Source of the DNA: Sphingomonadaceae bacterium | GTDB lineage: Bacteria > Pseudomonadota > Alphaproteobacteria > Sphingomonadales > Sphingomonadaceae | NCBI GenBank assembly: GCA_019239915.1 | Contig: JAFAZF010000058.1 | Location: forward strand, 62,001-126,000 | Direction: 5' to 3' | DNA length: 64,000 nucleotides | Part shown: in pieces, positions 6,120-60,327 of the stretch | How the letters are laid out: every line of letters begins with the position of its first letter | How positions within the stretch are numbered: position 1 is the stretch's first letter | The notes under the pieces: generated by a model | What the model saw: the letters and a program-made list of their open reading frames with translations, nothing else | What the model was told of the DNA's origin: nothing | Database searches by the model: none | Made by a program: the position numbers and the translations under genes

Positions 6120-6180
6120 CTCGCAGGTCGTTCCGAGTTCCCGGGACGGTCAGCCACCCCGTTCAGTGGAGTCCGACATC

Positions 6181-38452: not shown

Positions 38453-38617
38453 AACGACTTCCTCTCCTTGGCGCGGATGGCAGACATAGGCTACCAGGTC
38501 AAACAGGTGCCGTTAGAGATTTGACGATCGGTCAGTTTTGCTGGACGGTCTTTTCGGGACTGATATACGGCTGCCCATCCGAGCGGCCACAAGGTCGACC
38601 GACCATGGAGAGCTGGC

Positions 38618-40093: not shown

Positions 40094-40112
40094 GCGTCAT
40101 GAGCCGGCCGAA

Positions 40113-41254: not shown

Positions 41255-41261
41255 CGAGGAG

Positions 41262-41588: not shown

Positions 41589-41672
41589 CGGCGCGCGCTG
41601 GCAATCTGCGATCTTACATGCTTTGAGACCTCATCGCGCGACCCGCATGGTCGTGCTAAGGGGAATATCGCT

Positions 41673-42332: not shown

Positions 42333-42339
42333 GCAAGCC

Positions 42340-43107: not shown

Positions 43108-43111
43108 CGGA

Positions 43112-43945: not shown

Positions 43946-44018
43946 CTCGCCTCCCCGGGAATCGACCGCGGCCTCTGGTGCCGCCTTGGTCGCTAAGAGC
44001 GAGAAAATTGTTGAATCG

Positions 44019-44771: not shown

Positions 44772-44935
44772 TCCTGATTCCAATCCTGCACTCCCGATCG
44801 CGCCTCAATCACGGATTGCCTTGGGCACATAGCAATGCGATGCGATGAACCTGACGATGCATCAAATAAAGTCGGGAGAGCAATATGCCGCAGGTGGAAG
44901 GCCCCGTTTCTTCGCGCTGCATCAAGGCTTGAACG

Positions 44936-46132
44936 ATGGTCGGCAATCCTCTCGCCGGAAAGGCCGCGATCTCGGGCATCGGCCGCTCGCGCATCGAGCG
45001 CAAGGGCATGACGCCGCCGATGATCCTGCTGGCGGAGGCGTTCAAGCAGGCGCTCGACGATGCTGGACTTGTTCGTGACGATATCGATGGCGTGTGTACT
45101 TATCCCGGCCACCGTGACGGTCGCGACGGGATGGCGCCGGTCGGCTCGACAGAAGCGATCAACGCGCTCGGGCTCAAGGTAAATTGGTATCAGGGCGGCC
45201 CGGAGGGTGCCGCGCAATCTTCCGCGCTGATGATCGCGGCGCTAGCGGTCGCGACGGGACAGGCGCGCCACGTGCTGGTCTTCCGCTGCCTCAACGAATC
45301 CTCGGCGCAGGCGACGGGTCGGCGCGGCATTGGTGAACGCGGCGGCGCCAGCGAGGTAGCGACGATCGGCGGCTGGTTATCCTGGCTCGTCCCTCTCGGT
45401 GCATCGTCGGCGGTCAACTGGGCTGCGATGTACGCCGATCGGATCATGCACGAACATGGCCTCACCCGCGAGCAGCTTGGCGCGCAAGCGGTGTTTCAGC
45501 GCGAGTGCGCACAGCACGATCCTGGCGCGATCATGCATGGCAAGCCGCTCACCATGGCGGACTATCTATCGTCGCGCATGATCTCCGATCCGCTCTGCCT
45601 CTTCGATTGCGACGTGCCGATAGACGGCGCCGCCTGTGTGATCGTGTCCACCATCGAGGCGGCGCGCGACTGCAAGCGGCCGCCCCTGCGGATCGAGGCG
45701 ATCGGGGCCGGACTGGAGCATGGCTTCACTTGGCACCAACGGCCCGATCTTACCACGATGGGCGCGCACGACGCCGCCGCGTCGATGTGGGCCACGACGG
45801 ACCTCAAACCTAGCGATGTCGATGTCGCCGGCCTCTATGACGGATTCTCGATCTTCGTACCCATGTGGCTCGAAGCACTCGGCTTCTGCGGACTTGGCGA
45901 AGGTGGCCCGTTCATCGGTTCGGGCGCGACGCGCCTCGACGGAGCAATCCCGACCAATACCAATGGCGGCCAGCTCTCCTCCGGCCGGCTACATGGCTAC
46001 GGCCTGCTGTGGGAGGTTTGTACTCAGCTTCGCGGCGATGGCGGCGCGCGGCAGGTCAAGGATGCACGCGTCGGCGTGGTCGGCGTCGGCGGCGGCCCGA
46101 TCGCGGGTACGGTGTTGCTGGCGCGCGAATAG
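44936..46132 (+). CDS. Cysteine-less SCP2/Ltp2-like thiolase (candidate retro-aldolase)
   Basis: A 398-residue thiolase-fold protein of the SCP-x/lipid-transfer group. At the nucleophile position it reads WYQGGPEGAAQSS (84-96) with no cysteine. It has the YDGFS motif (Y301) and GGQLSSGRLHGYG (344-356). Ltp2, a steroid side-chain aldolase, lacks the thiolase cysteine, uses tyrosines in this region, and needs a DUF35 partner. A DUF35 gene lies at 49795. Retro-aldol removal of a side-chain fragment from a beta-hydroxyacyl-CoA is therefore the best hypothesis; a plain thiolase is less likely. The ribosome-binding site is weak (AAGG). Confidence 0.83.
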   Translation: MVGNPLAGKAAISGIGRSRIERKGMTPPMILLAEAFKQALDDAGLVRDDIDGVCTYPGHRDGRDGMAPVGSTEAINALGLKVNWYQGGPEGAAQSSALMIAALAVATGQARHVLVFRCLNESSAQATGRRGIGERGGASEVATIGGWLSWLVPLGASSAVNWAAMYADRIMHEHGLTREQLGAQAVFQRECAQHDPGAIMHGKPLTMADYLSSRMISDPLCLFDCDVPIDGAACVIVSTIEAARDCKRPPLRIEAIGAGLEHGFTWHQRPDLTTMGAHDAAASMWATTDLKPSDVDVAGLYDGFSIFVPMWLEALGFCGLGEGGPFIGSGATRLDGAIPTNTNGGQLSSGRLHGYGLLWEVCTQLRGDGGARQVKDARVGVVGVGGGPIAGTVLLARE

Positions 46133-46146
46133 CAGTGGAGAAACGG

Positions 46147-46944
46147 ATGGCGGAGCAGCCCGAAGGGGTCGGCAAGGAGGTGCTCTACGAGATCGTCGAC
46201 GATCATGTCGCGCTCGTCACTCTCAACCGGCCAGACAAGCGCAACGCGGTCAATGGGATAGTCGCGCGTGCCATGCAGTGGATCCGTCGTGACGTCGAGG
46301 TCCGGGACGCGATCCGTGTTGCGATCATTTGCTCGTCGAGCCCGCAGACCTTCTGTGCCGGCGCGGACCTCGCCGAGATCGCCGCCGGGCGCGGTCACAC
46401 CATCGCCCCCGACGGCGAGGGCTTCGCTGCCTTTACCGACGTTGCGCATGCCAAGCCGTGGATCGCGGCGGTCTCCGGCAACGTGCTCGCCGGCGGCTGT
46501 GAACTTGCGCTCGCCTGCGACATGATTGTCGCTTCCGAGGACTCGCGCTTCGGCTTGCCCGAGGTAAAACGAGGCCTGTTCGCGGGCGCCGGTGGCGTCT
46601 TCCGCCTGCCGCGCATGATTCCCCGCAACATCGCCTATGAATTGGTCGCGACCGGCGACCCGATGCCGGCTGAGCGCGCTTTTCATTTTGGATTGGTCAA
46701 CCGATTGGTTCCGTCTGGTGAGGCAATTTCGAGCGCCCGTGGTCTCGCCCGGGAGATTGCTGTGAACGCGCCTGTTTCGGTGCGCGAAAGCTTGGCTGTC
46801 GCGCGTCTCTCGCACGATATCGACGAGGAAGCTTTGCGTGCCCGTTCGCGCGAGGCGAGCGCGATCACCGGCGCCACCCAAGACGCCAAGGAAGGCACGC
46901 TGGCCTTTCTCGAGAAACGGGCGCCGGCGTGGACAGGCCGGTGA
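46147..46944 (+). CDS. Enoyl-CoA hydratase (crotonase family)
   Basis: About 265 residues from the ATG at 46147, six bases after GGAG. Motifs: TFCAGADLAEI and SGNVLAGGCELALACDM (oxyanion hole), then RFGLPEVKRGLFAGAGG, with a glutamate in the hydratase position. It is closely related to the enzyme at 8442 (same GLPEVKRG and the ending DAKEGTLAFLEKRAPAWTGR). It follows the Ltp2-like gene by 14 bases. Hydration of an enoyl-CoA would give the beta-hydroxy substrate for a retro-aldolase, so the two genes may act in sequence. Confidence 0.9.
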   Translation: MAEQPEGVGKEVLYEIVDDHVALVTLNRPDKRNAVNGIVARAMQWIRRDVEVRDAIRVAIICSSSPQTFCAGADLAEIAAGRGHTIAPDGEGFAAFTDVAHAKPWIAAVSGNVLAGGCELALACDMIVASEDSRFGLPEVKRGLFAGAGGVFRLPRMIPRNIAYELVATGDPMPAERAFHFGLVNRLVPSGEAISSARGLAREIAVNAPVSVRESLAVARLSHDIDEEALRARSREASAITGATQDAKEGTLAFLEKRAPAWTGR

Positions 46945-47032
46945 AGTCGCGCAGCCACTTGCAAAGCCATCAGCGACCGCGTAAAAGTGACGGATAGTCA
47001 ATTCCAGCGGTGATAGGCCGAGGAGAGGTGAT

Positions 47033-48349
47033 ATGAGAATGGACGATATGGTGATCGTCAGCGTCGACGATCATGCGGTCGAGCCGCCGAGCGCATTCCT
47101 CAGTCACTATTCCGCGTCGTTCAAGGACGAAGCGCCCAAAGTCATCGACAAGGACGGCAAGGACGTCTGGTTATGGAATGACCAGATCTATCCAACGATC
47201 GGGTTAAATGCCGTCGTGGGGCGGCCTCGCTCGGAGTACGGGATGGAGCCAACCCGCTTCGAGCAGATCCGGGCAGGAGCGTTCGATCCGAAGGCGCGGG
47301 TCGACGACATGAACGTCAACGGAATATGCGGCTCGCTCAACTTCGCGACGATGCCCGGCTTTTCAGGCAACGCCTTTATCGCCGCCGCGCTTCAGGGCCA
47401 CAAGGAGAAGGCGCTCCGGGCGATCAAGGCCTGGAACGACTGGCACATGCTCGAATGGTGCGCGGCCGCTCCGGGCCGGTTCATCCCGATGATGATCCTG
47501 CCGCTTTGGGACATGACGGAGACGCTCGCCGAAATCCAACGTTGGGTGAAGCAGGACGTCCATGCCATCGCCTTTCCCGACAATCCTGCTCTGATCGGCC
47601 TGCCGAGCCTGCACAACGCCTATTGGGAGCCGGTGTGGCAGGCCTGTTGCGACCACAAGATCGTGCTCAACTGCCATATCGGCACCGGCGCGCGCGCGGC
47701 GCACGCCTCCGACGAGTCGCCCATCGACGCGTGGATCACGACGATGCCGATGTCGATATCCAACTCGGCTGCGGACTGGTTGTTCGGCACGTTCTGGAAG
47801 AAATACCCCGATCTGCGCATGGCGCTGTCCGAAGGCGGCATCGGCTGGGTGCCCTATCTGCTCGAGCGAGCCGACTTCACCTATGAGCACCATCACGAAT
47901 GGACTTTTTCGGATTTTGGCAGGGAGCGGCCGTCCGATGTGTTCAAGCGGCATATCATCACCTGTTTCATCGACGATCAGTTCGGGCTCAAGAATCTGGA
48001 ATACATGAATACGGATATGGTCTGTTATGAGTCGGATTATCCGCATTCCGACACGTTGTGGCCGAACTGCCCGGAGTATCTATGGGCAACGGTCAACGGA
48101 CTGAACTCGCACGTGATCGACGCGATCACGCACCAGAATGCCATGCGCGAATACAATTTCGATCCCTATACTGTACTCGGTGGACGCGAGAACTGCACAG
48201 TCGGACATCTCCGCGTTCTCGGCAAAGACGTCGATGTCTCGCCGCGCGAGAATCTTGGCGGCCTTCGCACCGATAGCATGGATTTCGTCGGGAAGGCGCG
48301 GCGCCCGGTCACATCGGGCGAAATCCAGCGCATGTTCGCAGCGGCATAG
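47033..48349 (+). CDS. Metal-dependent amidohydrolase, ACMSD-like TIM barrel
   Basis: A 438-residue amidohydrolase_2 family protein. The metal motif appears as IVSVDDHAVEPPSAF, followed by HIGTG, and EGGIGWVPYLLERADF, with the final aspartate in CYESDYPHSDTLWPNC, a typical end of this group. Such enzymes cleave C-C bonds (decarboxylation, retro-aldol) or C-N bonds. In sphingomonad and actinobacterial lipid clusters they occur widely with unknown substrates. A ribosome-binding site AGGAGAGG precedes the ATG. A good terminator 18 bases after the stop ends the rightward operon of Ltp2-like, hydratase and this gene. Confidence 0.88.
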   Translation: MRMDDMVIVSVDDHAVEPPSAFLSHYSASFKDEAPKVIDKDGKDVWLWNDQIYPTIGLNAVVGRPRSEYGMEPTRFEQIRAGAFDPKARVDDMNVNGICGSLNFATMPGFSGNAFIAAALQGHKEKALRAIKAWNDWHMLEWCAAAPGRFIPMMILPLWDMTETLAEIQRWVKQDVHAIAFPDNPALIGLPSLHNAYWEPVWQACCDHKIVLNCHIGTGARAAHASDESPIDAWITTMPMSISNSAADWLFGTFWKKYPDLRMALSEGGIGWVPYLLERADFTYEHHHEWTFSDFGRERPSDVFKRHIITCFIDDQFGLKNLEYMNTDMVCYESDYPHSDTLWPNCPEYLWATVNGLNSHVIDAITHQNAMREYNFDPYTVLGGRENCTVGHLRVLGKDVDVSPRENLGGLRTDSMDFVGKARRPVTSGEIQRMFAAA

Positions 48350-48366
48350 ATTTGGCGGAAAAGGTT

Positions 48367-48397
48367 CCGGGGCAGATATCGCCTGCCCCGGCTTTTC
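48367..48397 (+). terminator. Rho-independent terminator after the amidohydrolase gene
   Basis: CCGGGGCAG (48367-48375) and CTGCCCCGG (48383-48391) form a perfect 9-bp stem with a 7-base loop, followed by CTTTTCTT. It begins 18 bases after the stop codon. This is a clear intrinsic terminator. Confidence 0.88.
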
Positions 48398-48501
48398 TTC
48401 TGGATGGTTGACAGAGACGGCATAGAACGGCGGACTGAATCGCGATCTACCCCGCAGCGTTCAGCAGCGACAATGCCGCCAACGCCACGAAGCATTGCCA
48501 T

Positions 48502-49590
48502 TCAGCGCGTCGCTCGCAAGGCATCCAGCATCCGCATGAAGTGATTGCCGACCCAGACGTCCTGGTCCTCACCCCAGCCGACCTTGCCTTCCATCTCCCA
48601 GCGCATGAGCTGGTTGAGACCGTAGCCGCTCTCGCTCATCCGGCTTACCGACATGCCTTCGGCTTCCATCGTTCGCCCGAGCTCGTCGGCGATCGAAACG
48701 AGCATGTGGCTGTTCCAGCCCGCGATCGGATCCCGGAAATTGAGCATCCTCGATCGTGCTTGATCGATGGCGCCGAACTTGCCGTCCTTCAACAGCCAAC
48801 CCACGTTCATTGGCGCCCAACCCTGCGCGTCGCCATCCTGCATCCGCACGAACCCGAGGAACCCGGTTTGCAGGTCCAGGCTGTGGCCGTAGATATAGTC
48901 GATCCGGCCGCGGCCGCGCTCGCGCTCGATCTGGCGCCACGCCGGACCGCCTGGATTTCTCACGCGGCTCTCGCCCGGCGCATAGGTCTTGCGGCTGGTC
49001 AGGTACGGACCTCCGCGAGGCCCCCACGTGCGATCGCGAACACCGACACCGTCGATCGGGATCTTCTCACCGCGCAGAGTGAGCGTGCCGACCACATGCC
49101 CGAGCTGGTCATAGTGCGGCGTCTGCATGAACGGCGCCTCGCCGGGCCGAAAGCGATGCGGCAGATGGACGCCGGTATGCACGAAGTCGAGCGCGAAGCC
49201 CCGCTCCGGGTCGGTGTAGCCGAGATGGTACTTCATGCCCGGCTCCAGCATCTTCAGGCTGTAGCCGCCGTTGGGAAAGGTGATGTCCCGCAGATCCGGA
49301 TCGTCCGGCATCGGGGCTTCCTCGACCTTCTTGTAATAGGCGAGCCGCCCGGGTTCGACACCCTGATCGTCCCATACGAAGATGCGCCAGGTGGCGGTCT
49401 TGCGATTGGGATAATAGGGCGTGTGGAGCCAGCAGCCGATCTTGCGCTCCGGGATGTTGAACGACCACCAGTTGGTTTCGGTCTCGTAGGGATCATCCGA
49501 AAGCTGATGGTAGCAATCATCCTCCGGTTTGAATCGGAGGGTCTCGTCGTCCGCCACTTTCATCTCCTCCAGCTCTCGAGCGCCTTTCAT
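48502..49590 (-). CDS. CrtC-like beta-barrel protein (lipocalin-type, DUF7064/7065-like)
   Basis: About 362 residues from an ATG at 49590; another at 49563 has GGAGGAG but too close to it. The sequence is rich in tryptophan and aromatic strands: TNWWSFNIPERKIGCWLHTP, WRIFVWDDQG, LDFVHTGVHLPHRF, GVRDRTWGPRGG and GWNSHMLVSIADELG. This is the pattern of hydroxyneurosporene synthase (CrtC)-like, AttH-like double beta-barrels, a fold that includes water-adding and terpenoid-modifying enzymes. No signal peptide. Hydration or isomerisation of an isoprenoid double bond is possible. It is downstream of the DUF35 gene on the same strand (204 bases apart), so co-expression is uncertain. Confidence 0.7.
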   Translation of the reverse strand: MKGARELEEMKVADDETLRFKPEDDCYHQLSDDPYETETNWWSFNIPERKIGCWLHTPYYPNRKTATWRIFVWDDQGVEPGRLAYYKKVEEAPMPDDPDLRDITFPNGGYSLKMLEPGMKYHLGYTDPERGFALDFVHTGVHLPHRFRPGEAPFMQTPHYDQLGHVVGTLTLRGEKIPIDGVGVRDRTWGPRGGPYLTSRKTYAPGESRVRNPGGPAWRQIERERGRGRIDYIYGHSLDLQTGFLGFVRMQDGDAQGWAPMNVGWLLKDGKFGAIDQARSRMLNFRDPIAGWNSHMLVSIADELGRTMEAEGMSVSRMSESGYGLNQLMRWEMEGKVGWGEDQDVWVGNHFMRMLDALRATR

Positions 49591-49794
49591 AAGCGCAGTC
49601 AGGTTCCTTGAGCCCAATATCGTCAGCAGCACGGCGGCATCTTCGTGCCTGCGAGATAAGCTCGCGCAATTGATCGATGATGGCACAATCCCATCTCGCC
49701 AAATTGGTGCGCTTACTTGATGGTGACCAATTTCGGCACTCGGTAACACGGAGTGGGCTGTAAACGCCGTGCGCCCCCCCCCCGTCTGCGGCCC
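49591..49794. other. Intergenic region with a C10 homopolymer
   Basis: About 204 bases between the CrtC-like and DUF35 genes. No gene is seen. A run of ten C (49774-49783) sits 11 bases beyond the DUF35 stop; such a homopolymer is a frequent site of sequencing error or length change. No terminator with a T-tract is visible. Confidence 0.5.
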
Positions 49795-50193
49795 CTAGCC
49801 AGCGAGCGGCTTGAACAGCGGGAGCCAGACGTCGCCTTCTTGTTGGAACGAGACCTGCACGCGGTCGTCGATACGTACATCTTCGGGATCGATGTCGACG
49901 ACGCGGGCGGTGATCCGCACCCCCGGCTCGCCATCCAGCTCGACCACCGCAAGCGCGTAGGGTACGATCATGTCCGGCGACCATTGCTGCCGGTTGATGG
50001 TCCGAGCCAACACCGTTCCGGTTCCTCTCGCCGGTCTTGCGGTGGTGCCGGACAGGCATTTTGGACAGACCATCTGCGCCGGATGGATCGCCGCATCGCA
50101 AGCATCGCAATGCGTGATCATCAATTCCCCTCTCGCGCCGCCCGTCCAGAACGGAGTGTTTTCAGGCGTCATCTCGGGAAGGATGCGCGTCAT
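49795..50193 (-). CDS. DUF35 OB-fold protein with zinc ribbon (Ltp2 partner candidate)
   Basis: A 132-residue protein: N-terminal helix (ENTPFWTGGARGELMITHC), a zinc ribbon C29-x2-C32...C43-x2-C46, and an OB fold (RGTGTVLARTINRQQW, YALAVVELDGEPGVRITARV). DUF35 proteins bind acyl-CoA and form complexes with SCP2-thiolase-type enzymes; in steroid catabolism a DUF35 domain (ChsH2) pairs with Ltp2 to carry out retro-aldol cleavage. The cysteine-less Ltp2-like thiolase at 44936 is the likely partner, 4 kb away and on the other strand. A well-placed AGGAG precedes the ATG. Confidence 0.88.
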   Translation of the reverse strand: MTRILPEMTPENTPFWTGGARGELMITHCDACDAAIHPAQMVCPKCLSGTTARPARGTGTVLARTINRQQWSPDMIVPYALAVVELDGEPGVRITARVVDIDPEDVRIDDRVQVSFQQEGDVWLPLFKPLAG

Positions 50194-50352
50194 GATCTCG
50201 CTCTCCTGCGGGCCGTGTCCTCATCCTAGCCATCGGAATCGCCACCGACCAGCCGCGTAGACGCACCGATCATGGCGAATTTGACGCGAGGGGCGCAGGA
50301 GCTGGCATTGATCAAGAAGTGCGGGAGGCGCCGTTTTTGACTCATCCGACCT

Positions 50353-50363
50353 GACGGACCGTC
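50353..50363. promoter_or_regulatory. Short palindrome upstream of the cytochrome P450 gene
   Basis: GACGG-A-CCGTC is an 11-bp palindrome 66 bases before the P450 start. GGACCGTC within it resembles GGACGGTC at 38543-38550, which stands 75 bases before the ALDH 2 operon, and both are followed by a run of T. It may be a shared operator, but the match is short. Confidence 0.3.
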
Positions 50364-50428
50364 ATTTTCCTTGGGGTGCATCATCCTGTCTGATATGCCG
50401 CCGATTAAAGGACACTTGGAGAGTGATG

Positions 50429-51682
50429 ATGGCTACCCAGCTCAAGGTCGAGCTCGATCCCTTCGTCGTGGACAATCGCCCCGACCATGTGCCTGCCGAA
50501 CTTGTCCGGGATCTGCGCTGGGCGTTGGGCAACTTTCCCGTCACTTATGACGAACCGTATAAGGAGACACAGATCTTCTTCGAAGGTGACGTGCCGCCGC
50601 TGCTCTGGACACCGGATGCAGTCGCCGGCCATCCCGGCATCGGGGCGTGGGTCGTCACCCGGTATCAGGATATCGCGCGCGTCTACCAGGATGCGGAGCT
50701 GTTCTCGACCGAAGGCGTCGCGGCGTTCCAATCAATGATCGGTGAGACCTGGCCTTGCATTCCGCTCGGCATCGATCCTCCGGATCACATGAAATATCGC
50801 ACGATGCTGAACCCGTTCTTCAGTCCGAAAGCGATCGACGCCCTCGAACAGAAGATCCGTGCAAGCGCCAATGTTCTGATCGACAGCTTCATCGATAAAG
50901 GCACCGTCGACTTCGCCTATGATTTCGGACGCGTCTACCCGGTGCGCGTGTTCATGGACTTGATGGGCTTCCCGTTCACGCAATTCGAGCAATTCCTCGA
51001 ATGGGAAAACGCGATCCTGCACAGCCATGATTTCGAGCTGGCGACCATGGCGCTGCGTGGCATCCTCGCCTATCTGCGTGAGTTCATAGCCGAACAGCGC
51101 GCTAATCCGGGGCCCGATCTCGCGGGCAAGATCGTCACCGGTCAAGTGGGCGGCCGCCCCATCACCGACGACGAGATCATCGGCACGATCTTCTTCCTGT
51201 GGCTGGGCGGGCTCGACACCGTTGCCTCCACGCTCGCGATGATATTCCGGCGGCTCGGGCTCGATATGGCGATGCAGCAGAAGCTGCGCGCCGATCCCGA
51301 ACTGATCCCGGACGCGGTCGAGGAGTTCCTGCGTGTACAGCCGCTGGTCAACTCGCACCGGCTCGTCAAGCGTGAGTTCGAATGGTACGGTCAGACGATC
51401 AAGCAGGGCGATTGGGTGATGGCCTTGGTGACGGCCGGCAACTTCGATCCCGCCGAGTTCGACAACCCGCGCGAAGTGCGGTTCGACCGTCAAGGCAATC
51501 GCCACTTCACGCTGGCCGGTGGGCCGCATCGCTGCCTCGGCTCGCATCTTGCGCGACGCGAATTGCGGGTGGCGCTGGAGGAATTCTTCCGCCGCGTCCC
51601 TCCTTTCAAGCTGGCAGCCAACGATGAGCGACTGATCTACCCCGGCCTGCGTTCGGCGCGGAATGTCCGCTTAGTGTGGTGA
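50429..51682 (+). CDS. Cytochrome P450
   Basis: About 417 residues starting at the ATG at 50429 (GGAG seven bases ahead; an ATG three bases earlier is also possible). The I-helix oxygen-activation motif reads LGGLDT (259-264), a variant of AGxDT. ExxR is E299-F-L-R302, and the heme-thiolate loop is LAGGPHRCLG with the ligand C369; phenylalanine of the usual FxxGxxxCxG is replaced by leucine. Bacterial class I P450, soluble, fed by a ferredoxin. It hydroxylates a substrate C-H bond, probably the first activation of a terminal or ring position in this pathway. It ends 12 bases inside the convergent ligase 3 gene. Confidence 0.93.
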   Translation: MATQLKVELDPFVVDNRPDHVPAELVRDLRWALGNFPVTYDEPYKETQIFFEGDVPPLLWTPDAVAGHPGIGAWVVTRYQDIARVYQDAELFSTEGVAAFQSMIGETWPCIPLGIDPPDHMKYRTMLNPFFSPKAIDALEQKIRASANVLIDSFIDKGTVDFAYDFGRVYPVRVFMDLMGFPFTQFEQFLEWENAILHSHDFELATMALRGILAYLREFIAEQRANPGPDLAGKIVTGQVGGRPITDDEIIGTIFFLWLGGLDTVASTLAMIFRRLGLDMAMQQKLRADPELIPDAVEEFLRVQPLVNSHRLVKREFEWYGQTIKQGDWVMALVTAGNFDPAEFDNPREVRFDRQGNRHFTLAGGPHRCLGSHLARRELRVALEEFFRRVPPFKLAANDERLIYPGLRSARNVRLVW

Positions 51683-53185
51683 ACTGGTGTCGCCCGATAG
51701 CAAGCGTACGATCTCGGGCAATACCGGTTTCATCGACGCGGTGCGCGGCACGTCATCCATCAGCGCGAACCGCACCGGGATCTGATAAGGCGCAAGGCTG
51801 AAGCGCAGGAATTCGGATAGCTCGGCATCCGATGGCGGCGAAGCGCCTCGCGCCAACATGATCGCAGCTGCAGGGACCCGGCCCAGCCGCGCATCGGGGA
51901 CGCCGACTACGACCGCCTCGCGAATAGAAGGATGCGCCTCCAGCGCCTGAACGACCTCCTCGGGCGATACCTTGAAGCCCCCGCGAATGATCACCCCATC
52001 GGCCCGTCCGGTCACCCAAAGGAAGCCATCGCCGTCGATCCGCGCGCGATCCGATGTCCGCAACCAGCCCCTCGGGTCGATCAACTGAGGCGACCGGAGT
52101 TCAAGCACTCCCTCCTTTCCGGGCGGCAAGACCGCATCGCTCGTGTCGTCAACGATCCGCGCCTCAACGTTGTGATGAAGACGGCCGACGGAACCGCGCT
52201 TTTCTGCCCACAACACCTCGAAGTCTGCCAGCGACCAGCGCGCCACCGGGCCGGCAAATTCCGTCGCTCCATAATTTGTTAGGACCGGGATGCCGTAGCG
52301 TTCGCGAAAGGCGTCGACGATCGCAGGATCCGTAGGTGCGGCGCCTGCAGTGATGGCCGCCAAGCTCGACAGCGCTTCTCGAGAAACGTTCGCGTCGAGA
52401 ACCATGCGAAGCGCGGCAGCGGTCAACGCTGCGGAGCGAGGCTGGTGACGGACGATTGCATCGAGCCACACAGCCACTTCGAATTTCTCGATCAGCACGA
52501 GCTTCCTGCCCAGGCAGATCGCAGTCAAGGAGCCCCACACGCCGCCGATGTGCGTCAGCGGCGCGGCCGATATCTGAATGCCGGGGCGCAGCGTCGGCGG
52601 CGCATCGAGCGCGCCTTCGGCCTTCAGCGTCGTGGCGAAGCTGTGCTCGAACGCTTGCCGGGTAAGCGAAACACGCTTCGGGAGACCCGTCGTACCGCTG
52701 GTCAGCATTTCGATCATTACGCCTGGTGCGGCACGTGCGAGCCTCGTACGGTCGTTCGGCGCGAGGATGATTTCCGCCTCGCCACGCCAGGGCTCGGGCA
52801 GTGCGACAAGCGCCGTACCTACCTCCCTTGCCGCCTCGACTATACCGTCACGGGCCAGATCGGCCGCGCCGCCGATGATCAACGGCAGTTCGAGGCGAGA
52901 GATTTCCTGCACAAGAACCGCTTCGGGATACATGGGGTTGAGCGTGACCATGCAGCGCTCCGTTGCGATCAGCGTATAGAGCGCGGCCAGATGGGGGAGA
53001 CGGTTGCGCAGCATGATGCCGACACGCGTCTCGGCGTCGAGACCGAGCGATCCGATCAGCCGATCGATCTCGCCCATCCGGGTCGCGAGCCCACCCCAGC
53101 TCTCCCAGCGCCCCTCGAACTCCATCGCCGGTGCGGTCGGATCGATTTTCAATACTGCGGAGATAAGCGCAGGAAGATCGAGCAT
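51671..53185 (-). CDS. AMP-forming acyl-CoA synthetase (ligase 3)
   Basis: A 504-residue ligase. P-loop MLTSGTTGLPKR at about residue 155-166, NYGATEFAGPV, SDRARIDGDGFLWVTGRADG and IIRGGFKVSPEEVV at the hinge, catalytic lysine in RTASMKPVLPEIV. It is clearly paralogous to ligase 2 at 14343, with which it shares the THIGGxWG and RTxSMKPxLPE motifs. It is the last gene before the tRNA remnant, on the reverse strand. Two such closely related ligases suggest two acids of the same pathway, for example before and after a chain-shortening step. Confidence 0.9.
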   Translation of the reverse strand: MLDLPALISAVLKIDPTAPAMEFEGRWESWGGLATRMGEIDRLIGSLGLDAETRVGIMLRNRLPHLAALYTLIATERCMVTLNPMYPEAVLVQEISRLELPLIIGGAADLARDGIVEAAREVGTALVALPEPWRGEAEIILAPNDRTRLARAAPGVMIEMLTSGTTGLPKRVSLTRQAFEHSFATTLKAEGALDAPPTLRPGIQISAAPLTHIGGVWGSLTAICLGRKLVLIEKFEVAVWLDAIVRHQPRSAALTAAALRMVLDANVSREALSSLAAITAGAAPTDPAIVDAFRERYGIPVLTNYGATEFAGPVARWSLADFEVLWAEKRGSVGRLHHNVEARIVDDTSDAVLPPGKEGVLELRSPQLIDPRGWLRTSDRARIDGDGFLWVTGRADGVIIRGGFKVSPEEVVQALEAHPSIREAVVVGVPDARLGRVPAAAIMLARGASPPSDAELSEFLRFSLAPYQIPVRFALMDDVPRTASMKPVLPEIVRLLSGDTSSPH

Positions 53186-53303
53186 GCTGCCACCTCTCCT
53201 CAGATATGGCCTTCCCTATACGAGGCGCCGTGCTGTCGGCCAGCCTATCCCACTTATCGGTCGGTTGATGACGAGGGGAATGGCGTGGCATTTCGCAACG
53301 CCC

Positions 53304-53355
53304 TAAATCCAGTTGGTGATCTGCGGCCGCAGGTTCGAACCCTGTCGCCCCGACC
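53304..53355 (+). other. Orphan 3' part of a tRNA gene (candidate attachment scar)
   Basis: From TAAATCCAG at 53304 the sequence reads as the end of an anticodon loop and its 3' stem. A long variable region follows, then a T arm GCAGG-TTCGAAC-CCTGT (53329-53345), the acceptor strand CGCCCCG (53346-53352), discriminator A, and CC. No matching 5' half (CGGGGCG, D arm, 5' anticodon stem) occurs in the preceding 100 bases. The variable region suggests a class II tRNA, perhaps tRNA-Tyr since the loop end would be ..TAAA, but the identity is uncertain. Integrases often recombine in the anticodon loop, leaving such a 3' fragment at one end of the element. Confidence 0.6.
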
Positions 53356-53466
53356 GTTCACACCGGAGACCCTGGATATCCGAACCCGCAGGCTTCGCTC
53401 TTGCGCGGGCCGCGCGCGAGCCGCACTCTCCTCCTCGCGATCGCAACGACGAGGAGAAGAGCGACC

Positions 53467-53934
53467 ATGGGCGTGAAGCTGACCCCCGAGGAGGTCGACG
53501 CCTTCCTCACCACCGGCCACACGCTGATCATCGCGACGATCCGCAAGTCCGGCGAACCGTTCATGACGCCGATCTGGTATGTCTGGGAAGACGGCGCCTT
53601 CTACGCGAGCACGCGTGCGGCATCCTCCAAGGTGCAGCACATCAAGCGCGATCCGCGCGTCTGCTGCATGGTCGAGGATGGCGAGATGTGGCTCGATCTG
53701 CGCGCCGTCATCGCCAATTGCGACGCCGAGTTCGTCACCGATGAAGCCACGATCGAGCGGATCCGGGCCGCCAACCAGAAGAAATATGCGGCGTTCCGCA
53801 CTGATCCGGCGAAGATGCCGAGCGCGACGAGCTCGCATTATGCGACCGAGAGCGTGCTCATCAAGATGACGCCGCGCCCGGGTGAGCTGCGCAGTTGGCA
53901 CAACCGCAAGATCCGGCTGCGCGACCCCTCCTGA
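53467..53934 (+). CDS. Pyridoxamine 5'-phosphate oxidase-fold protein
   Basis: A 155-residue split-barrel flavin-binding protein (PPOX/F420-binding superfamily). The start is the ATG at 53467 after GAGGAGAAGA. Family signature: TLIIATIRKSGEPFMTPIWYVWEDG, then ASSKVQHIKRDPRV and MVEDGEMWLDLRAVIANCD. Members bind FMN, heme or F420 and act as oxidoreductases or detoxifying enzymes. The specific role is unknown. It is the first gene after the tRNA remnant and convergent with the small exported protein. Confidence 0.86.
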   Translation: MGVKLTPEEVDAFLTTGHTLIIATIRKSGEPFMTPIWYVWEDGAFYASTRAASSKVQHIKRDPRVCCMVEDGEMWLDLRAVIANCDAEFVTDEATIERIRAANQKKYAAFRTDPAKMPSATSSHYATESVLIKMTPRPGELRSWHNRKIRLRDPS

Positions 53935-53952
53935 GGCGGCGCGGCCGCGCGA

Positions 53953-54225
53953 TCAGCGGTGCGGCTGCTCGTGCGCGCGCGGCGCGGCGGCGTTGGGCGT
54001 GCCGGGTTCGGTCGGGCGCACCGGATGGTTGGCGCGATCGGTGCTGCGGATCATCGCGTTGGTTTCGGCCTGGATGTTGGCGGTGAAGCCGCCTTGCGCG
54101 GCGGCACGCGAGGTTGGGCCCGCCGCCTCCATCTGACCCGCGGTCGGGACCTGGGCGAGCACCGTGGCCGCGCAGAGCAGGCCGGCGGAAAGGAGGCCGA
54201 GCCTCGCGATCGTCATCTTCGGCAT
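53953..54225 (-). CDS. Small exported protein of unknown function
   Basis: A 90-residue protein beginning MPKMTIARLGLLSAGLLCAA, a positively charged start and hydrophobic core, with probable cleavage after VLAQ. The mature part (about 65 residues) is rich in Ala, Pro, Asn and charged residues with no repeat or motif that I recognise. The ATG at 54216 is an alternative start. It is probably periplasmic. Its function cannot be guessed. It lies 37 bases from an oxidoreductase gene on the same strand. Confidence 0.6.
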   Translation of the reverse strand: MPKMTIARLGLLSAGLLCAATVLAQVPTAGQMEAAGPTSRAAAQGGFTANIQAETNAMIRSTDRANHPVRPTEPGTPNAAAPRAHEQPHR

Positions 54226-54262
54226 GGCGCTCGATCAACCGACCAGTTGCGCCAAGGTTGCG

Positions 54263-55360
54263 TCAGCCGGTTTCCGCCAGCCGCACTACATGCTCGGCGA
54301 TCGCGAGCGACGCGGTCAGCCCCGGCGATTCGATGCCGAACAGGTTGACGAGCCCGGCGAGGCCATGCGCCGCCGGCCCCTGCAGCATGAAGTCGGCGGG
54401 CGGCGCGCCGGGCCCGCTCAGCTTCGGCCGGATGCCGGCATAGCCGGGCGCGAGCCGCTCCTCGTCGATCCCCGCCCAGATCTTGCGCGCGGCGGCGAGG
54501 AACTCGCCCTTGCGGGCGGGATCGACGCTATAGTCGATCGCGTCGACCCAATGGATGTCGGGCCCGAACCGCGCCTGTCCGCCGAGATCGAGCGTAAAGT
54601 GCGTGCCGAGGCTCGCCGGCCCCGGCACCGGATAGATCAGCCGCGTGAACGGCACCCGCCCCGAATAGGTGAAGTAACAGCCCTTGGCGAGGAAGCGCGG
54701 CGGGATCAGCGCGGGATCGAGCGCGTCGATCGTCCGCGCCACCGCCTGTGCGTCGAGCCCGGCGGCGTTGACGACGAGCGGCGCGGCGATCGCAGTCTCA
54801 CCCGAGCGGACCACCCAGCCGTCGCCGCGCCGCGCGATCCCGTCGACCGCCGCTTCGCAGACAAGCATCGCGCCGTACGCCTCGGCTTCGCCGAGCAGCG
54901 CCAGCATCAACGCGTGCTGGTCGACGATCCCGGTCGAGGGCGAATGCACCGCGCCGACGCAGCGCAGCGCCGGCTCGATCGCCGCCGCGCCCGCGCCATC
55001 GAGCAGCACGAGATCGTCGACGCCCGCGGCCCGGCCATGCGCCATCACCGCCTCGAGCCCGGCGAGCTCGCCTTCGTCCGCGGCGAAGATCAGCTTGCCG
55101 CAGCGCCGGTGCGGCACGCCATGCTCCGCGCAGAAGTCGTAGAGCAGCCGCCGCCCCGCGACGCACAGCGCCGCCTTCAGCGAACCCTCGGGATAATAGA
55201 GGCCGGCGTGGATCACGCCGCTGTTGCGCGACGAGGTGATCGCCCCGAACCGCGCCTCGCGCTCGAGGATCAGCACCTCGCGGCCGGACCGCGCCAGCGC
55301 CCGCCCGATCGCAAGCCCGACCACCCCCGCCCCGATCACGATCGCGCCGACTTCGTCCAT
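54263..55360 (-). CDS. L-2-hydroxyglutarate oxidase-like FAD-dependent oxidoreductase
   Basis: A 365-residue DAO-family flavoprotein. The FAD-binding motif is AIVIGAGVVGLAIGRAL (about 7-22), followed by the ribose-binding ILEREARFG and the family-typical SSRNSGVIHAGLYYPEGS. VNAAGLDAQ and the C-terminal FGIESPGLTASLAIAE complete the FAD site. This is the LhgO/L2HGDH pattern: oxidation of L-2-hydroxyglutarate or related 2-hydroxy acids with electron delivery to the respiratory quinone pool. Length is slightly shorter than E. coli LhgO (about 420) but the motifs are intact. It is probably single-gene. Confidence 0.87.
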   Translation of the reverse strand: MDEVGAIVIGAGVVGLAIGRALARSGREVLILEREARFGAITSSRNSGVIHAGLYYPEGSLKAALCVAGRRLLYDFCAEHGVPHRRCGKLIFAADEGELAGLEAVMAHGRAAGVDDLVLLDGAGAAAIEPALRCVGAVHSPSTGIVDQHALMLALLGEAEAYGAMLVCEAAVDGIARRGDGWVVRSGETAIAAPLVVNAAGLDAQAVARTIDALDPALIPPRFLAKGCYFTYSGRVPFTRLIYPVPGPASLGTHFTLDLGGQARFGPDIHWVDAIDYSVDPARKGEFLAAARKIWAGIDEERLAPGYAGIRPKLSGPGAPPADFMLQGPAAHGLAGLVNLFGIESPGLTASLAIAEHVVRLAETG

Positions 55361-55469
55361 GGCGCTCCTCTAGAGCCGAGACACACGCGCGGGAATGGCG
55401 AACGAAGGTGAATGGCGGCTATCGCCCATTTGGGGACAGGACGTTGCCGCTCCTCGCCTTATCCTTCAT

Positions 55470-55913
55470 CCTCCCCATGCATGCATGGGGAGGGGGACCG
55501 CCGCAGGCGGTGGAGGGGAGATGGCGCCACGCAAGACGATTGCGCGGCTCGCGATCTGCGCAAGCGCATGACCGCACCCGAGGTGCGGCTGTGGGCGCTG
55601 TTCAAGTCGCGGCCGGGCGGGGTCCGGCTGCGGCGCCAGCATCCGATCGGACCGTTCATTCTGGACTTCTACTACGCGCGGGCTCGGCTCGCGATCGAGA
55701 TCGACGGCATGACTCATGACATGGGCGATCGGCCGGAGCGCGACCGGCGACGCGACCTGTGGTTGGCGGACCAGGGGATTGCGACACTGCGCATCGCCGC
55801 GAGCGAAGTGATGAACGATGCGGAAGCAGTCGTCGCCGCCATCTGCGCGCGTTGCGCATCACCCCTCCACCATCCTGCGGATGGTCCCCCTCCCCATGCT
55901 ACGCATGGGGAGG
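55470..55913. repeat. Inverted repeats flanking the DUF559 gene
   Basis: The left arm 55470-55518 and the right arm 55862-55913 (reverse complement) are nearly identical: both read CCTCCCCATGC, a short hairpin loop, GCATGGGGAGGGGGACC, then a second hairpin (CCGCCGCAGGCGG on the left, CCATCCGCAGGATGG on the right) and TGGAGGGG. Each arm is two hairpins, and the pair brackets the DUF559 gene. The left arm supplies the ribosome-binding site; the right arm lies inside the coding frame's tail. Similar GC-rich double hairpins occur in many sphingomonad genomes. Confidence 0.85.
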
Positions 55914-56005
55914 ACGAACGACCGCTTTCCACCAACACCCGCCGTCAGCTGCCGTTGCCCTCGCCTTCGCGGCGGGAGCCGGGGGAGTGTTCCTTGCGCA
56001 TGTAG
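55521..56005 (+). pseudogene. DUF559 (endonuclease-like) gene with an N-terminal frameshift
   Basis: A DUF559 protein of the Vsr-related endonuclease fold. Frame 1 from ATG at 55521, with GGAGGGG before it, reads MAPRKTIA and then leaves the family pattern. Frame 2 from 55547 gives ARDLRKRMTAPEVRLWALFK, HPIGPFILDFYYARARLAIE and IDGMTHD, the DUF559 core. One base appears lost at about 55545-55546: inserting a base restores MAPRKTIARARDLRKRM. The ATG at 55568 could start a shortened 145-residue protein. The C-terminal 50 residues are translated through the right inverted repeat and beyond, overlapping the convergent SnoaL gene, so they are not original. Function is unknown. Confidence 0.65.
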
Positions 56006-56400
56006 GAGAGGCGGCGGCTGGTGAAGAGCCACTGCCCGTCGCGGACGCCATAGGTGTCGTCATAATGGCCCCAGCCGTGGAACCAGTGATCCTCGTCGCC
56101 CTGCTTCCAGTAGAGATAATCCTCCAGCGTCCAGAAGCCCCGCGCCTCGGTCGGCGAGAGGATCTCGATCATCGGGCTGTGCACGAAATGGATGTGGCGA
56201 ATGCCGTCCATATTCTTCTTGAGCGCGTCCATCATCGCCTTGCGGCCGCCACCGGGATTCCACTGCGGGCCGGCCGAGACATGATCCTCGGCATGGCACG
56301 CCTCGTAGGTCTCCCAGTCGTGCGCATCGAGCGCGCGCACCCGCCGCGCCATCAGGCAGTGGATCTCGTTGATCGCGACCAGCTTCTCCAGATCGGTCAT
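55945..56400 (-). CDS. SnoaL-like/NTF2-fold protein
   Basis: About 151 residues from the ATG at 56400, following AGGAGAGGAT. The fold pattern is an N-terminal helix (EKLVAINEIHCLMARRVRAL), HDWETYEACHAEDHV, GGGRKAMMDALKKNMDGIRH, HFVHSPMIEILSPTEARGFW and WFHGWGHYDDTYGVRDGQW. It resembles the SnoaL_4 group, as does the gene at 28061, but the two share only general features. Putative catalytic residues cannot be defined. The end reads EHSPGSRREGEGNGS. Its 3' end overlaps the tail of the DUF559 frame by 61 bases. Confidence 0.8.
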   Translation of the reverse strand: MTDLEKLVAINEIHCLMARRVRALDAHDWETYEACHAEDHVSAGPQWNPGGGRKAMMDALKKNMDGIRHIHFVHSPMIEILSPTEARGFWTLEDYLYWKQGDEDHWFHGWGHYDDTYGVRDGQWLFTSRRLSYMRKEHSPGSRREGEGNGS

Positions 56401-56432
56401 ATCCTCTCCTCGTTCGTGCGGCGTCGTCGCCG

Positions 56433-56930
56433 TCAGGCCTTGCCCCGCAGCATCTGCAGCGCGCGGCGGAAGCGCTCGCCGCCGGCCGCGGCCTGCGCGT
56501 CGGCATCGGCATCGCGCGGCGCATTGGCGGTCGCGGTAGTCTCGCGCAGCCGTTCGGACAGGAACAGCGCCAGCGCCCGATAGAAGCGGGCGGCGAAGCG
56601 CGGCTCCTGCTCGAAACGCTCGAGGATGCGATCGCGCGGGATGGCGAGGATCTCGCCCTTGCCCTCGGCGCGCACGGTGGCGGACGGCGGCCGGCTCTCG
56701 ATGAACGACATCTCGCCGAACACCGCGCCTTCCTCCAGCGTCGCGACCTGCGTACCGTCGGGCAGCACCACCGCGAGGCTGCCCTGCGTCACGAAGAACA
56801 GGTCGCCGACCGGCTTGCCGGCCTGGATCGGCCGCTCGCCGCCCCGCAGCCGCTTGAGACTGCCGGTCGAGAGCAGCCAGATCATGTCGGCGTCGCTCAG
56901 GCCTGCGACGATATAGAGCGTGTTGGCCAT
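56433..56930 (-). CDS. Cyclic nucleotide-binding domain protein (Crp-like sensor without HTH)
   Basis: A 165-residue protein with one cNMP-binding beta-barrel: QAGKPVGDLFFVTQGSLAVV, TLEEGAVFGEMSFIESRPPS and ATVRAEGKGEILAIPRDRIL. The FGEM segment corresponds to the phosphate-binding cassette, but the usual FGExAL-R-A is altered (FGEMSFIESRPPSA). No helix-turn-helix follows; the C-terminus is a helical tail (FLSERLRETTATANAPRDAD). It probably serves as a sensor or partner subunit. It lies 32 bases from the SnoaL gene on the same strand. Confidence 0.83.
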   Translation of the reverse strand: MANTLYIVAGLSDADMIWLLSTGSLKRLRGGERPIQAGKPVGDLFFVTQGSLAVVLPDGTQVATLEEGAVFGEMSFIESRPPSATVRAEGKGEILAIPRDRILERFEQEPRFAARFYRALALFLSERLRETTATANAPRDADADAQAAAGGERFRRALQMLRGKA

Positions 56931-57066
56931 CGCGTCCCCCGGGGCACCCGGCGTTCACTGTGCGTCGCCGCGCGATTCTCGGCAACCGCCGCGGCGATAA
57001 TTTCCTGCTGTCCTACAGAGAACCAGATGGGTTACTTGCCGCCACAACGAGGGTTGGAGGCAAAAC

Positions 57067-57606
57067 ATGGACGTGACCGCATTGATCGACGCGCTGATCG
57101 ACCGGGAGGGCGGCTATGTCGCCAACCCCGCCGATCGCGGCGGCCCCACGCGCTTCGGCATTACCCAGGCGACCGCGCGCGCCAACGGCTATGCCGGCGA
57201 CATGGCGGTGCTTCCGCGCGCCGTCGCCGCCGCGATCTACCAGCGGCTCTATTGGGCCAAGCCGGGGCTCGACCGCATCGCGGCGCTGGCGCCGAAGCTC
57301 GCCGCCGAACTGTTCGATACCGGCGTCAACATGGGTCCCGAGACCGCGCTCGGCTTCCTCCGCCGCGCGCTCAATGCGCTCAATCGCGGCGCACGGGACT
57401 ATGCCGACATCCCTGCGAGCGGCCTGGTCGACACCGCCTTGTTCGGCGCGCTCGCGGCTTTTCTCAAGACGCGCGGCCCGGCCGGGGAGACGGTGCTGAT
57501 CCGGGCGGTCGATGCGCTGCAGGGCGCCCGCTACGTCGCGCTCGCCGAGGCGCGGCCGGCCGACGAAGCCTTCCTCTACGGCTGGCTCGCGAACCGGGTG
57601 GGGTGA
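57067..57606 (+). CDS. GH108 N-acetylmuramidase (phage-type lysozyme)
   Basis: A 179-residue glycoside hydrolase of family 108. The catalytic region is IDREGGYVANPADRGGPTRF, with E14 in the EGGY motif and a GIT continuation; AELFDTGVNMGPETA is the second conserved block. The C-terminal half carries the peptidoglycan-binding domain found in this family. No signal peptide, which fits export with a holin in phages, or a phage-derived domesticated lysozyme. No other phage gene is near, so I regard it as an isolated muramidase gene rather than a prophage. Confidence 0.88.
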   Translation: MDVTALIDALIDREGGYVANPADRGGPTRFGITQATARANGYAGDMAVLPRAVAAAIYQRLYWAKPGLDRIAALAPKLAAELFDTGVNMGPETALGFLRRALNALNRGARDYADIPASGLVDTALFGALAAFLKTRGPAGETVLIRAVDALQGARYVALAEARPADEAFLYGWLANRVG

Positions 57607-57806: not shown

Positions 57807-58151
57807 ATGACCAAGGCGCTCCCCACCCTGCTCCTGCTCTGCTGCTCAAACATCTTCATGACCGCCGCTTGGTACGGCCAGCTCCGCTTCCCGCAGGCGA
57901 AGCTGTGGGTGGCGATCCTCGTCTCCTGGGCGATCGCGCTCTTCGAATATTGCCTCGCGGTGCCGGCGAACCGGATCGGTTACGCGAACGGCCTCTCGAC
58001 CGCCCAGCTCAAGATCATGCAGGAGTGCGTCACGCTCGCCGTCTTCGCAATCTTCGCCGCGATCCTGTTTAAGGAGCCGATCACCTGGCGCTATCTCGGC
58101 GCCGGCGCCTGCATCGCCGGCGCGGCCGCGTTCATCTTCGTCGGGCGGTGA
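57807..58151 (+). CDS. DUF486 (DMT-like) small membrane protein
   Basis: A 114-residue protein with four hydrophobic helices: PTLLLLCCSNIFMTAAWYG, LWVAILVSWAIALFEYCLAV, CVTLAVFAIFAAILF and LGAGACIAGAAAFIFVG. The motif PANRIGY and GLSTAQLKIMQE between helices 2 and 3 is the DUF486 signature. It is related in topology to the small multidrug-resistance/DMT transporters and possibly moves a small compound in the inner membrane. No start alternative is obvious. Direct repeats upstream may regulate it. Confidence 0.87.
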   Translation: MTKALPTLLLLCCSNIFMTAAWYGQLRFPQAKLWVAILVSWAIALFEYCLAVPANRIGYANGLSTAQLKIMQECVTLAVFAIFAAILFKEPITWRYLGAGACIAGAAAFIFVGR

Positions 58152-58350: not shown

Positions 58351-58917
58351 ATGAGCGGGACGACGATGGACGACAAGATCGGCTGGCACGGGACGACGAT
58401 CCTCTCCGTGCGCAAGAACGGCAAGGTGGTGGTGGCGGGCGACGGCCAGGTGTCGATGGGCAACACGGTGGTGAAGCCCAACGCGCGCAAGGTCCGCCGC
58501 CTCCACGACGGCTCGGTGATCGGCGGCTTCGCCGGCGCCACCGCCGACGCGTTCACGCTGTTCGAGCGGCTCGAGCGGAAATTGGAGCAGCATCACGGCC
58601 AGCTGATGCGCGCCGCGGTCGAGCTCGCCAAGGATTGGCGGACCGACAAGTTCCTGCGCAACCTCGAGGCGCTGATGATCGTCGCCGACAAGGACATCAC
58701 GCTGATGATCACCGGCAACGGCGACGTGCTCGAGCCCGTCGCCGGCATCGCGGCGATCGGTTCCGGCGGCAACTACGCGCTCGCCGCCGCCCGCGCTCTC
58801 GCAGACTATGAGGCCGACGCCGAGACGATCTGCCGCAAGGCGATGGGAATCGCGGCGGAGGTCTGCGTCTTCACCAACGGCAACCTCACGATCGAGACGC
58901 TGGATTCCAGCAGCTAA
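58351..58917 (+). CDS. hslV: ATP-dependent protease proteolytic subunit HslV
   Basis: A 188-residue proteasome-like N-terminal-nucleophile peptidase. The mature enzyme begins at the threonine in [20 protein letters not shown] (T at about 15-16 after the removed propeptide); [20 protein letters not shown] and [16 protein letters not shown] are the family signature. It forms a dodecamer with the HslU ATPase, which is encoded 105 bases downstream, to degrade misfolded or specific regulatory proteins. The first in-frame ATG (58351) has a weak ribosome-binding site and another ATG lies 15 bases later. Confidence 0.95.
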
Positions 58918-58919
58918 AG

Positions 58920-59013
58920 CCCCTCCCTGGAAGGGAGGGGTTGGGGTGGGTTGCTATCGGCAGCGCACCTCGCCCATCTACCCACCCCCGACCCCTCCCG
59001 TCCAGGGAGGGGG
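58920..59013. repeat. Inverted-repeat element between hslV and hslU
   Basis: CCCCTCCCTGGAAGGGAGGGG and TTGGGGTGGGT (58920-58951) and ACCCACCCCCGACCCCTCCC plus GTCCAGGGAGGGG (58980-59013) are inverted copies with a centre of about 28 bases. They form hairpins themselves. The right arm ends next to the hslU start, and GGGGGGAG, which is probably the hslU ribosome-binding site, is at its edge. An element of this kind inside a core operon could affect hslU expression. Confidence 0.82.
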
Positions 59014-59022
59014 GAGTATAGA

Positions 59023-60327
59023 ATGAACGACGCCCTCACCCCCAAGGCCATCGTCGCCGCGCTCGACCAGCACATCATCGGTCAGACAGAGGCCAAGCGC
59101 GCGGTCGCGGTCGCGCTGCGCAACCGCTGGCGCCGCCAGCGTCTCGCGCCCGAGCTGCGCGAGGAGGTCAGCCCCAAGAACATCCTGATGATCGGGCCGA
59201 CCGGCTGCGGCAAGACCGAGATCAGCCGCCGCCTCGCCAAGCTCGCCGATGCACCGTTCGTGAAGGTGGAAGCCACCAAGTTCACCGAGGTCGGCTATGT
59301 CGGCCGCGACGTCGAGCAGATCGCGCGCGATCTCGTCGAGGAGGCGATCCGGCTGGAGCGCGAGCGCCGCCGCGGCGCGGTCAAGGAAAAGGCCGAGGAG
59401 GCGGCGCGCGAGCGGTTGCTCGACGCGCTCGTCGGCAAGGACGCGTCCGCCGCGACCCGCGAGAGCTTCGCCCGGCGCTTCGCCGACGGCCATCTCGAGG
59501 CCAGCGAGATCGAGATCGAGGTCGAGGACCAGCCCAACATGCCGTTCGAGATTCCCGGCATGGGCGGCCAGGTCGGCATGATCAACCTGTCCGATATGAT
59601 GGGCAAGGCGTTCGGCGGCGGCCAGCGCTCGAAGCGTCGCCGCATGAACGTCCGCGCCGCCTGGACTAAACTGGTCGAGGAGGAGAGCGACAGAAGGCTC
59701 GATCAGGATGATCTCAACCGCGCCGCGCTCGCCGACGCCGAGGCTAACGGCATCGTCTTCCTCGACGAGATCGACAAGATCGCAGTCAGCGATGTACGCG
59801 GCGGATCGGTCAGCCGCGAGGGCGTGCAGCGCGACCTGCTGCCGCTGATCGAGGGGACGACGGTCGCGACCAAATATGGTCCGATCAAGACCGACCACAT
59901 CTTGTTCATCGCGTCGGGCGCCTTCCACGTCGCCAAGCCCTCCGACCTGTTGCCCGAGCTGCAGGGCCGCCTGCCGATTCGGGTGGAGCTGAAGGCGCTG
60001 ACCGAGGCCGATTTCGTCGCGATCCTCTCAGACACGCGTGCGAGCCTAGCCGAGCAATATCGTGCGCTACTCGCGACCGAAGAGGTCACGATCGAGATCA
60101 CGCCGGAAGGCATTGCCGCGATCGCCCGCATCGCCGCGGAGGTGAACGAGAGCGTCGAGAATATCGGCGCGCGCCGGCTCCAGACGGTGATGGAGAAGCT
60201 GCTCGAGGAAGTCAGCTTCGACGCCGAGGAGCGGCGCGGCACGGCGCTGGCGGTGGACGCGGCCTATGTCGAGGCGCAGCTCGCGGGGATCGCGAAGAAC
60301 ACGGATCTGTCGAAGTACGTGCTCTAG
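59023..60327 (+). CDS. hslU: HslU ATPase subunit of the HslVU protease
   Basis: About 434 residues starting [20 protein letters not shown] at the ATG at 59023; the frame is open upstream through repeat sequence, which is not protein. Walker [10 protein letters not shown] (about 60), Walker [12 protein letters not shown] (about 245), the family I-domain insertion between them (about 110-230), sensor regions, and the C-terminal ISKYVL-type tail (here DLSKYVL) that docks HslV. It unfolds substrates and feeds them to HslV in the cytoplasm. Gene order hslV-hslU is normal. Confidence 0.97.

Follow-up and report, generated by a model that had tools for sequence, protein, structure and literature searches.

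Tandem arrays of genomic islands at tRNA genes are well documented: Table 1 of the Islander database (PMC4383910) lists 3919 islands and gives 125 as the number of tandems with at least two members, and the tandem rule stated in that source asks for an integrase and a tRNA fragment for each member. For the ICEs of the Tn4371 family, the attachment sequence is given as TTTTTCAT (PMC2789088, PMC9960961). Here we analyze a locus of a Sphingomonadaceae bacterium in which a long block of catabolic genes lies between two copies of the 3' part of a single tRNA gene, tRNA-Pro(GGG). The stretch under study, hereafter the window, is 64,000 nucleotides long and corresponds to positions 62001-126000 of contig C81 in an assembly of 85 contigs; coordinates without a contig name refer to the window. 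The reading we favor, at a probability of about 60%, is that two insertions are stacked at tRNA-Pro(GGG), and that 31 bases of the window, perhaps up to 52, are the 3' end of this gene displaced by foreign DNA.

The displaced fragment lies on the forward strand at 53325-53355 (C81:115325-115355) and comprises the T arm, the 3' strand of the acceptor stem, the discriminator A and CC. Aligned to the tRNA-Pro(GGG) of the same genome, it covers positions 46-76 and differs by two mismatches in 31 bases (29/31, or 94%, BLAST E-value 8.6e-7), and the final A of its CCA is replaced by G. The next-best matches are the tRNA-Pro(TGG) genes of relatives (28/31), and other tRNA genes reach 27/31 at most, in a comparison that took in 30 of the genome's own 40 Rfam tRNA matches. 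As expected for a fragment, neither ARAGORN nor Rfam at its gathering threshold calls a tRNA gene in the window. The original prediction had placed a tRNA segment running from the anticodon loop to CC at 53304-53355. Its right-hand part stands, whereas the remainder (53304-53324, forward strand) may at most be a worn stretch of this fragment's anticodon arm: its similarity to the anticodon arm is marginal and close to the 5% chance level, as 937 of 20,000 random 21-mers from neighboring accessory DNA align as well. The local alignment itself can be lengthened on the left, so that it covers 53314-53355, at the cost of mismatches and a single gap. An exact 27-mer of the fragment occurs in one of 397 genomes of the family, namely its own, which gives it the look of a private, drifted copy. 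A tRNA from another species, instead of a mutated copy of the own gene, was considered and rejected as its source, since the 27-mer is found in no other of these 397 genomes; donors beyond this sample may still exist. Its sequence and its surroundings, described below, mark the fragment as a displaced tRNA 3' end, or scar, on the right border of acquired DNA.

Base composition changes at the same place. For the genes of C81:20-138.4 kb, predicted with a simple custom codon score, a single shift in third-position GC (GC3) is best placed in the interval 53185-53401, where the log-likelihood gain is 298; the borders 53934/53953 (gain 290) and 54225/54263 (gain 284) come next and trail by no more than 8 and 14 log units. 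The break in codon usage is thus located at 53.2-54.3 kb with a sharpness no better than about 1 kb, and within this tolerance the catabolic genes end at the scar, as had been proposed; the limited sharpness counts against two insertions. Left of the scar, the two halves of the block have pooled GC3 values of 0.749 and 0.755; the value is 0.902 for the four genes called at 53356-57000 and 0.881 further right. Palindromic repeats, which the original prediction had confined to the right of the scar, indeed keep to that side in the window as far as three tested families show; outside the window, a copy sits in accessory DNA at C81:12098-12166. This core-type repeat, inside what would be the older block (C81:12.1 kb), also counts against two insertions.

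The first gene past the scar (53467-53934, forward strand) encodes a PNPOx-like protein (Pfam PF01243) with a paralogue on contig C14 of the same genome and no match in any of nine congeners; a contig pattern search with the gene right of the scar returned at least four genomes among the matches listed, all of them distant relatives. It is followed by a DAO-family FAD oxidoreductase gene of core-like codon usage (54263-55360, reverse strand; PF01266; GC3 0.910) and, all on the forward strand, by a glycoside hydrolase 108 (GH108) lysozyme gene (57067-57606; PF05838), a DMT_6 (DUF486) gene (57807-58151; PF04342) and a pair of core genes for a proteasome-type protease and an AAA ATPase (58351-60327; Pfam), which share 82-85% DNA identity with all nine congeners. 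We take this pair, from its families, to be hslV-hslU. With 30 candidates scored per genome, hslVU (58.35-60.33 kb) are, among the matches listed, the first to be matched over a long stretch in every one of the nine congeners. That core genes begin at the scar is therefore true by composition, but not by conservation, given the unmatched gene at 53467-53934 and the start of the universal long matches at hslVU. At 12.4-13.7 kb right of the window, C81 carries a tRNA-Tyr(GTA) gene (138391-138473) and then, on the opposite strand, a tyrosine integrase gene (138482-139711). This is likely another tRNA island, and the core-like segment bearing hslVU would hence be only about 22 kb long.

To which tRNA gene this right flank belongs can be read from the congeners. 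A match to tRNA-Pro(GGG) was obtained in eight of the nine, and all eight regions were compared; the ninth assembly (G008, about 880 contigs) gave none. The upstream side of the gene (secD, yajC and beyond) is syntenic in all eight. Downstream, a GH108 orthologue lies 140-182 bp past the tRNA in three regions (G001, G002 and G009), and in a fourth (G004) DMT_6-hslV-hslU begins 3.2 kb past it, with hslVU at 3.6 kb; in the other four (G003, G005, G006 and G007) neither right-flank gene is near the tRNA in the stretch compared. Right-flank genes beside tRNA-Pro(GGG) in four of eight congeners assign the sequence beyond the scar to the neighborhood of this tRNA. The expectation that the region right of 53355 follows the intact tRNA directly does not hold for the first 3.7 kb, which are beside the tRNA in none of the eight regions; the genes that do follow it there lie 3.7-7 kb right of the scar here. 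These 3.7 kb between scar and GH108, lacking a counterpart, count against two insertions. So does a second feature of the comparison: hslVU are found near tRNA-Gln(CTG) at all five other loci compared (G001, G002, G005, G006 and G009, the loci of G003, G007 and G008 being outside this comparison), which, together with the four regions devoid of right-flank genes, shows that the tRNA-Pro(GGG) neighborhood has been rearranged within the genus. The hslVU pair, which is in the tRNA-Pro(GGG) neighborhood in G004 and, by inference, here, offers in itself a case of core-gene relocation within a genus.

Taken as a mere chance similarity, or as a tRNA fragment unrelated to the block, the scar would agree with the near-chance level of 53304-53324. 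Agreement of 29 of 31 bases on the fitting strand makes such a coincidence extremely improbable, the more so as composition shifts where the fragment lies and four congeners have right-flank genes adjoining this very tRNA.

Left of the scar extends an accessory block of 105.5 kb (C81:9807-115303), whose right half occupies window 1-53303 (family scans; GC3 0.755 vs 0.88 right of 57 kb). The part of its genes that was scanned includes CoA ligases, acyl-CoA dehydrogenases, a P450, an aldehyde dehydrogenase and a TonB receptor, as well as family III CoA transferases, SDRs and luciferase-like monooxygenases. Two long proteins of 794 and 815 amino acids (window 6061-8445 and C81:53123-55570) each contain at least two family III CoA transferase stretches and are apparently fused CoA transferases. 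As anticipated, the congeners lack the cluster: for window 36000-53250 (17 kb), a search at E 1e-30 with 30 candidates scored per genome revealed no counterpart of the block in any of the nine, two of them giving one match each of less than 1 kb (67-68%) and seven giving none. Window 1-25000 matches seven plasmid records, with a best cover of 11%, and window 28400-53300 matches none by megablast.

No PF00589 integrase is found within C81:9807-115303, and a search for an integrase relic in the 105-kb block yielded nothing convincing (best tblastn E-value 0.016). The block ends on an acyl-CoA ligase gene (51671-53185, reverse strand; family scan; GC3 0.734), in the position where the younger element described below has its integrase. 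Another explanation would have the block arrive by homologous recombination or transposition, with the scar surviving from an older element that is now deleted. The 105 kb devoid of an integrase relic would fit, and so would the degraded state of the scar and the extra 3.7 kb that separate it from the gene following the tRNA in congeners, but the shift in composition is placed best right at the scar, even if borders up to about 0.9 kb further right are only 8-14 log units worse. We consider this explanation possible but rather unlikely.

The original prediction foresaw an intact tRNA and an integrase to the left of the window. An intact tRNA exists, and so does an integrase on that side. The intact tRNA-Pro(GGG) gene is at C60:19478-19554; C60 and C81 are separate contigs, unjoined in the assembly, so that tRNA and scar are on different contigs, and the orientation of the scar fits both the accessory DNA and the flank. 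The integrase gene (C81:8303-9583, reverse strand; PF00589), of the tyrosine type and with no second PF00589 integrase on this side of the scar on C81, adjoins a perfect 45-bp copy of tRNA-Pro(GGG) positions 33-77 (C81:9762-9806), 105 kb left of the scar. Other than this copy, C81:1-145000 and C60 contain no further fragment of the tRNA 3' end. The predicted extent, from anticodon loop to 3' end, is thus realized in the perfect copy and is not demonstrable for the scar.

Right of the intact tRNA, C60 encodes members of the families TrbI, CagX, VirB8, TrbL, CagE_TrbE_VirB, TrbC, T2SSE and T4SS-DNA_transf, which we read as trbI, trbG, trbF, trbL, trbE, trbC, trbB and traG. The genome contains a 22-bp motif, composed of a pair of 11-bp units, at just two places: 66 bases past the tRNA (C60:19621) and 118 bases ahead of the perfect copy (C81:9622). 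Several features of ICEs are hence present, namely a tyrosine integrase beside an att copy and type IV secretion genes with a coupling protein; no relaxase was seen among the genes scanned, which represent part of the element; a further part would lie in the gap between C60 and C81. The tRNA, the trb module, the integrase and the perfect copy most likely frame a younger ICE with putative excision and transfer functions, and the paired copies and 22-bp motifs are what the two ends of a single ICE with integrase arm sites should be expected to show. The secretion module matches 94 plasmid records, all partially (best cover 25%), and the best plasmid matches of both this module and window 1-25000 are Sphingomonas and Sphingobium records.

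Five related integrases (40-46% identity) provide a wider view of this element. At E 1e-60 the group is present in at least six of the 397 family genomes, including the present one, a lower bound obtained with four candidates scored per genome. A tRNA 3' half lies beside each of the five. Two of these halves were identified by a tool as Pro; the remaining three, read by eye, are Arg, Arg and Thr-like. In two genomes (G256 and G382), an intact tRNA-Pro is followed by the integrase and then by a 45/46-bp copy in the same orientation, 56.8 kb from the tRNA in G256 and 8.5 kb in G382. The C60 trb genes have no match in the whole of the G382 element or at the two ends of the G256 element, which suggests that integrases of this group have no fixed association with conjugation genes and travel with different cargo. 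Direct repeats spaced by 11 bp (run of at least 7) are present at all nine ends tested for the group (both ends in the present genome, G256 and G382; the integrase end in G315, G112 and G223), whereas in the sole control, random pieces of C81, they turn up in 91 of 5000; they were first noticed by eye at the ends in the present genome, G256 and G382 and tested afterwards. The paired 11-bp repeats vary in sequence from end to end and are probably arm-type integrase sites; their occurrence at nine of nine ends predicts the arm binding sites of the integrase. At the two ends of the older block no such paired repeat was found (runs of 3). This, with the missing integrase relic, counts against two insertions.

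Other tRNA genes of this genome also have integrases for neighbors. A tRNA-Pro(TGG) without its first 8 bases (C33:8700-8768) lies near an integrase (C33:6949-7491); a complete tRNA-Pro(TGG) was not found in the assembly, and the intact gene is therefore probably in a gap. Four further tRNA genes, for Leu, Thr, Lys and Ser (C85:26773, C15:86233, C57:8827 and C39:13645), each have a match to an integrase, or to something resembling one, no more than about 1.1 kb away; of these matches, three fall below the Pfam cut-off.

Could the scar be the right end of a single element, at least 134 kb from the tRNA, with the copy at C81:9762 as a secondary insertion? All assembled DNA from the tRNA to the scar is accessory in composition, and the integrase at C81:8303-9583, with no other PF00589 integrase on C81 left of the scar, lies in between. 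However, the perfect copy and the motif that occurs only twice frame the DNA from C60 to C81:9761 and leave the catabolic block outside, and the elements of this integrase group in G256 and G382 end at the copy beside the integrase. A single element is accordingly quite unlikely. As the integrase at C81:8303-9583 has its own perfect copy at C81:9762-9806, the scar is not its right end and at least two insertions are needed. On this point the original prediction, which had a single element carrying the 53-kb cluster and bounded by the scar, is not borne out as stated.

We therefore return to two successive insertions at tRNA-Pro(GGG). The older one, now represented by C81:9807-115303 with its catabolic genes, would have split off the scar seen in the window, and this island would later have lost, or never kept, its integrase. 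A younger ICE would then have entered the same regenerated tRNA gene by recombination at the anticodon loop, leaving the perfect copy at C81:9762-9806 and pushing the older island away from the tRNA. An older island that has no integrase is thus the most likely identity of the catabolic genes between the two tRNA copies. Through the ICE, part of which would fall in the gap between them, contigs C60 and C81 would be joined; that the assembly keeps them apart counts against two insertions. The order of insertion, block before ICE, we infer from position, the insertion nearer the tRNA being the newer, and from the state of the copies, decayed in the scar and perfect beside the ICE; that an integrase made the older insertion would follow from the scar alone.

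Such an arrangement gives access to the relative order of acquisition at a single tRNA gene, with the catabolic block (eroded scar) preceding the conjugative element (perfect copy), and illustrates a way for genes of degradation to become fixed next to mobile DNA. ICE, perfect copy and scar could also act as a composite, the ICE integrase occasionally recombining the tRNA with the distal scar and mobilizing the 105-kb block in cis. If true, the ICE would carry an integrase-less catabolic block together with itself; we regard this as very unlikely.

Known systems share several of these traits. The Trb-type transfer genes with traG are like those described for the Tn4371 family (PMC2789088, PMC9960961), and one TTTTTCAT octamer is present at C60:19567-19574, 12 bases past the tRNA and near trbI. 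Membership in this family was considered on account of this octamer and ruled out, an exact octamer search having found no second TTTTTCAT at the integrase end: unlike the ends described for Tn4371 elements in these sources, with TTTTTCAT at both, those of the present ICE are tRNA copies. Another likeness is with the trb-type ICEs of Alphaproteobacteria of the ICEMlSym R7A group, as portrayed in PMC8627217, which likewise combine an integrase, trb genes and integration beside a tRNA; the target here is tRNA-Pro(GGG), and the likeness is one of gene content and type of target. Relative to the tandems of Islander, as defined in PMC4383910, the locus differs in that its older block has no integrase and its scar is mutated. 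It agrees with the tRNA islands of the same database in having an intact tRNA, a displaced 3' fragment and accessory DNA; the fragment would share the orientation of the tRNA, with the accessory DNA between them, if the two unjoined contigs connect as proposed. The stacking mechanism is already known, and the locus would add a further case to the tandem tRNA islands.
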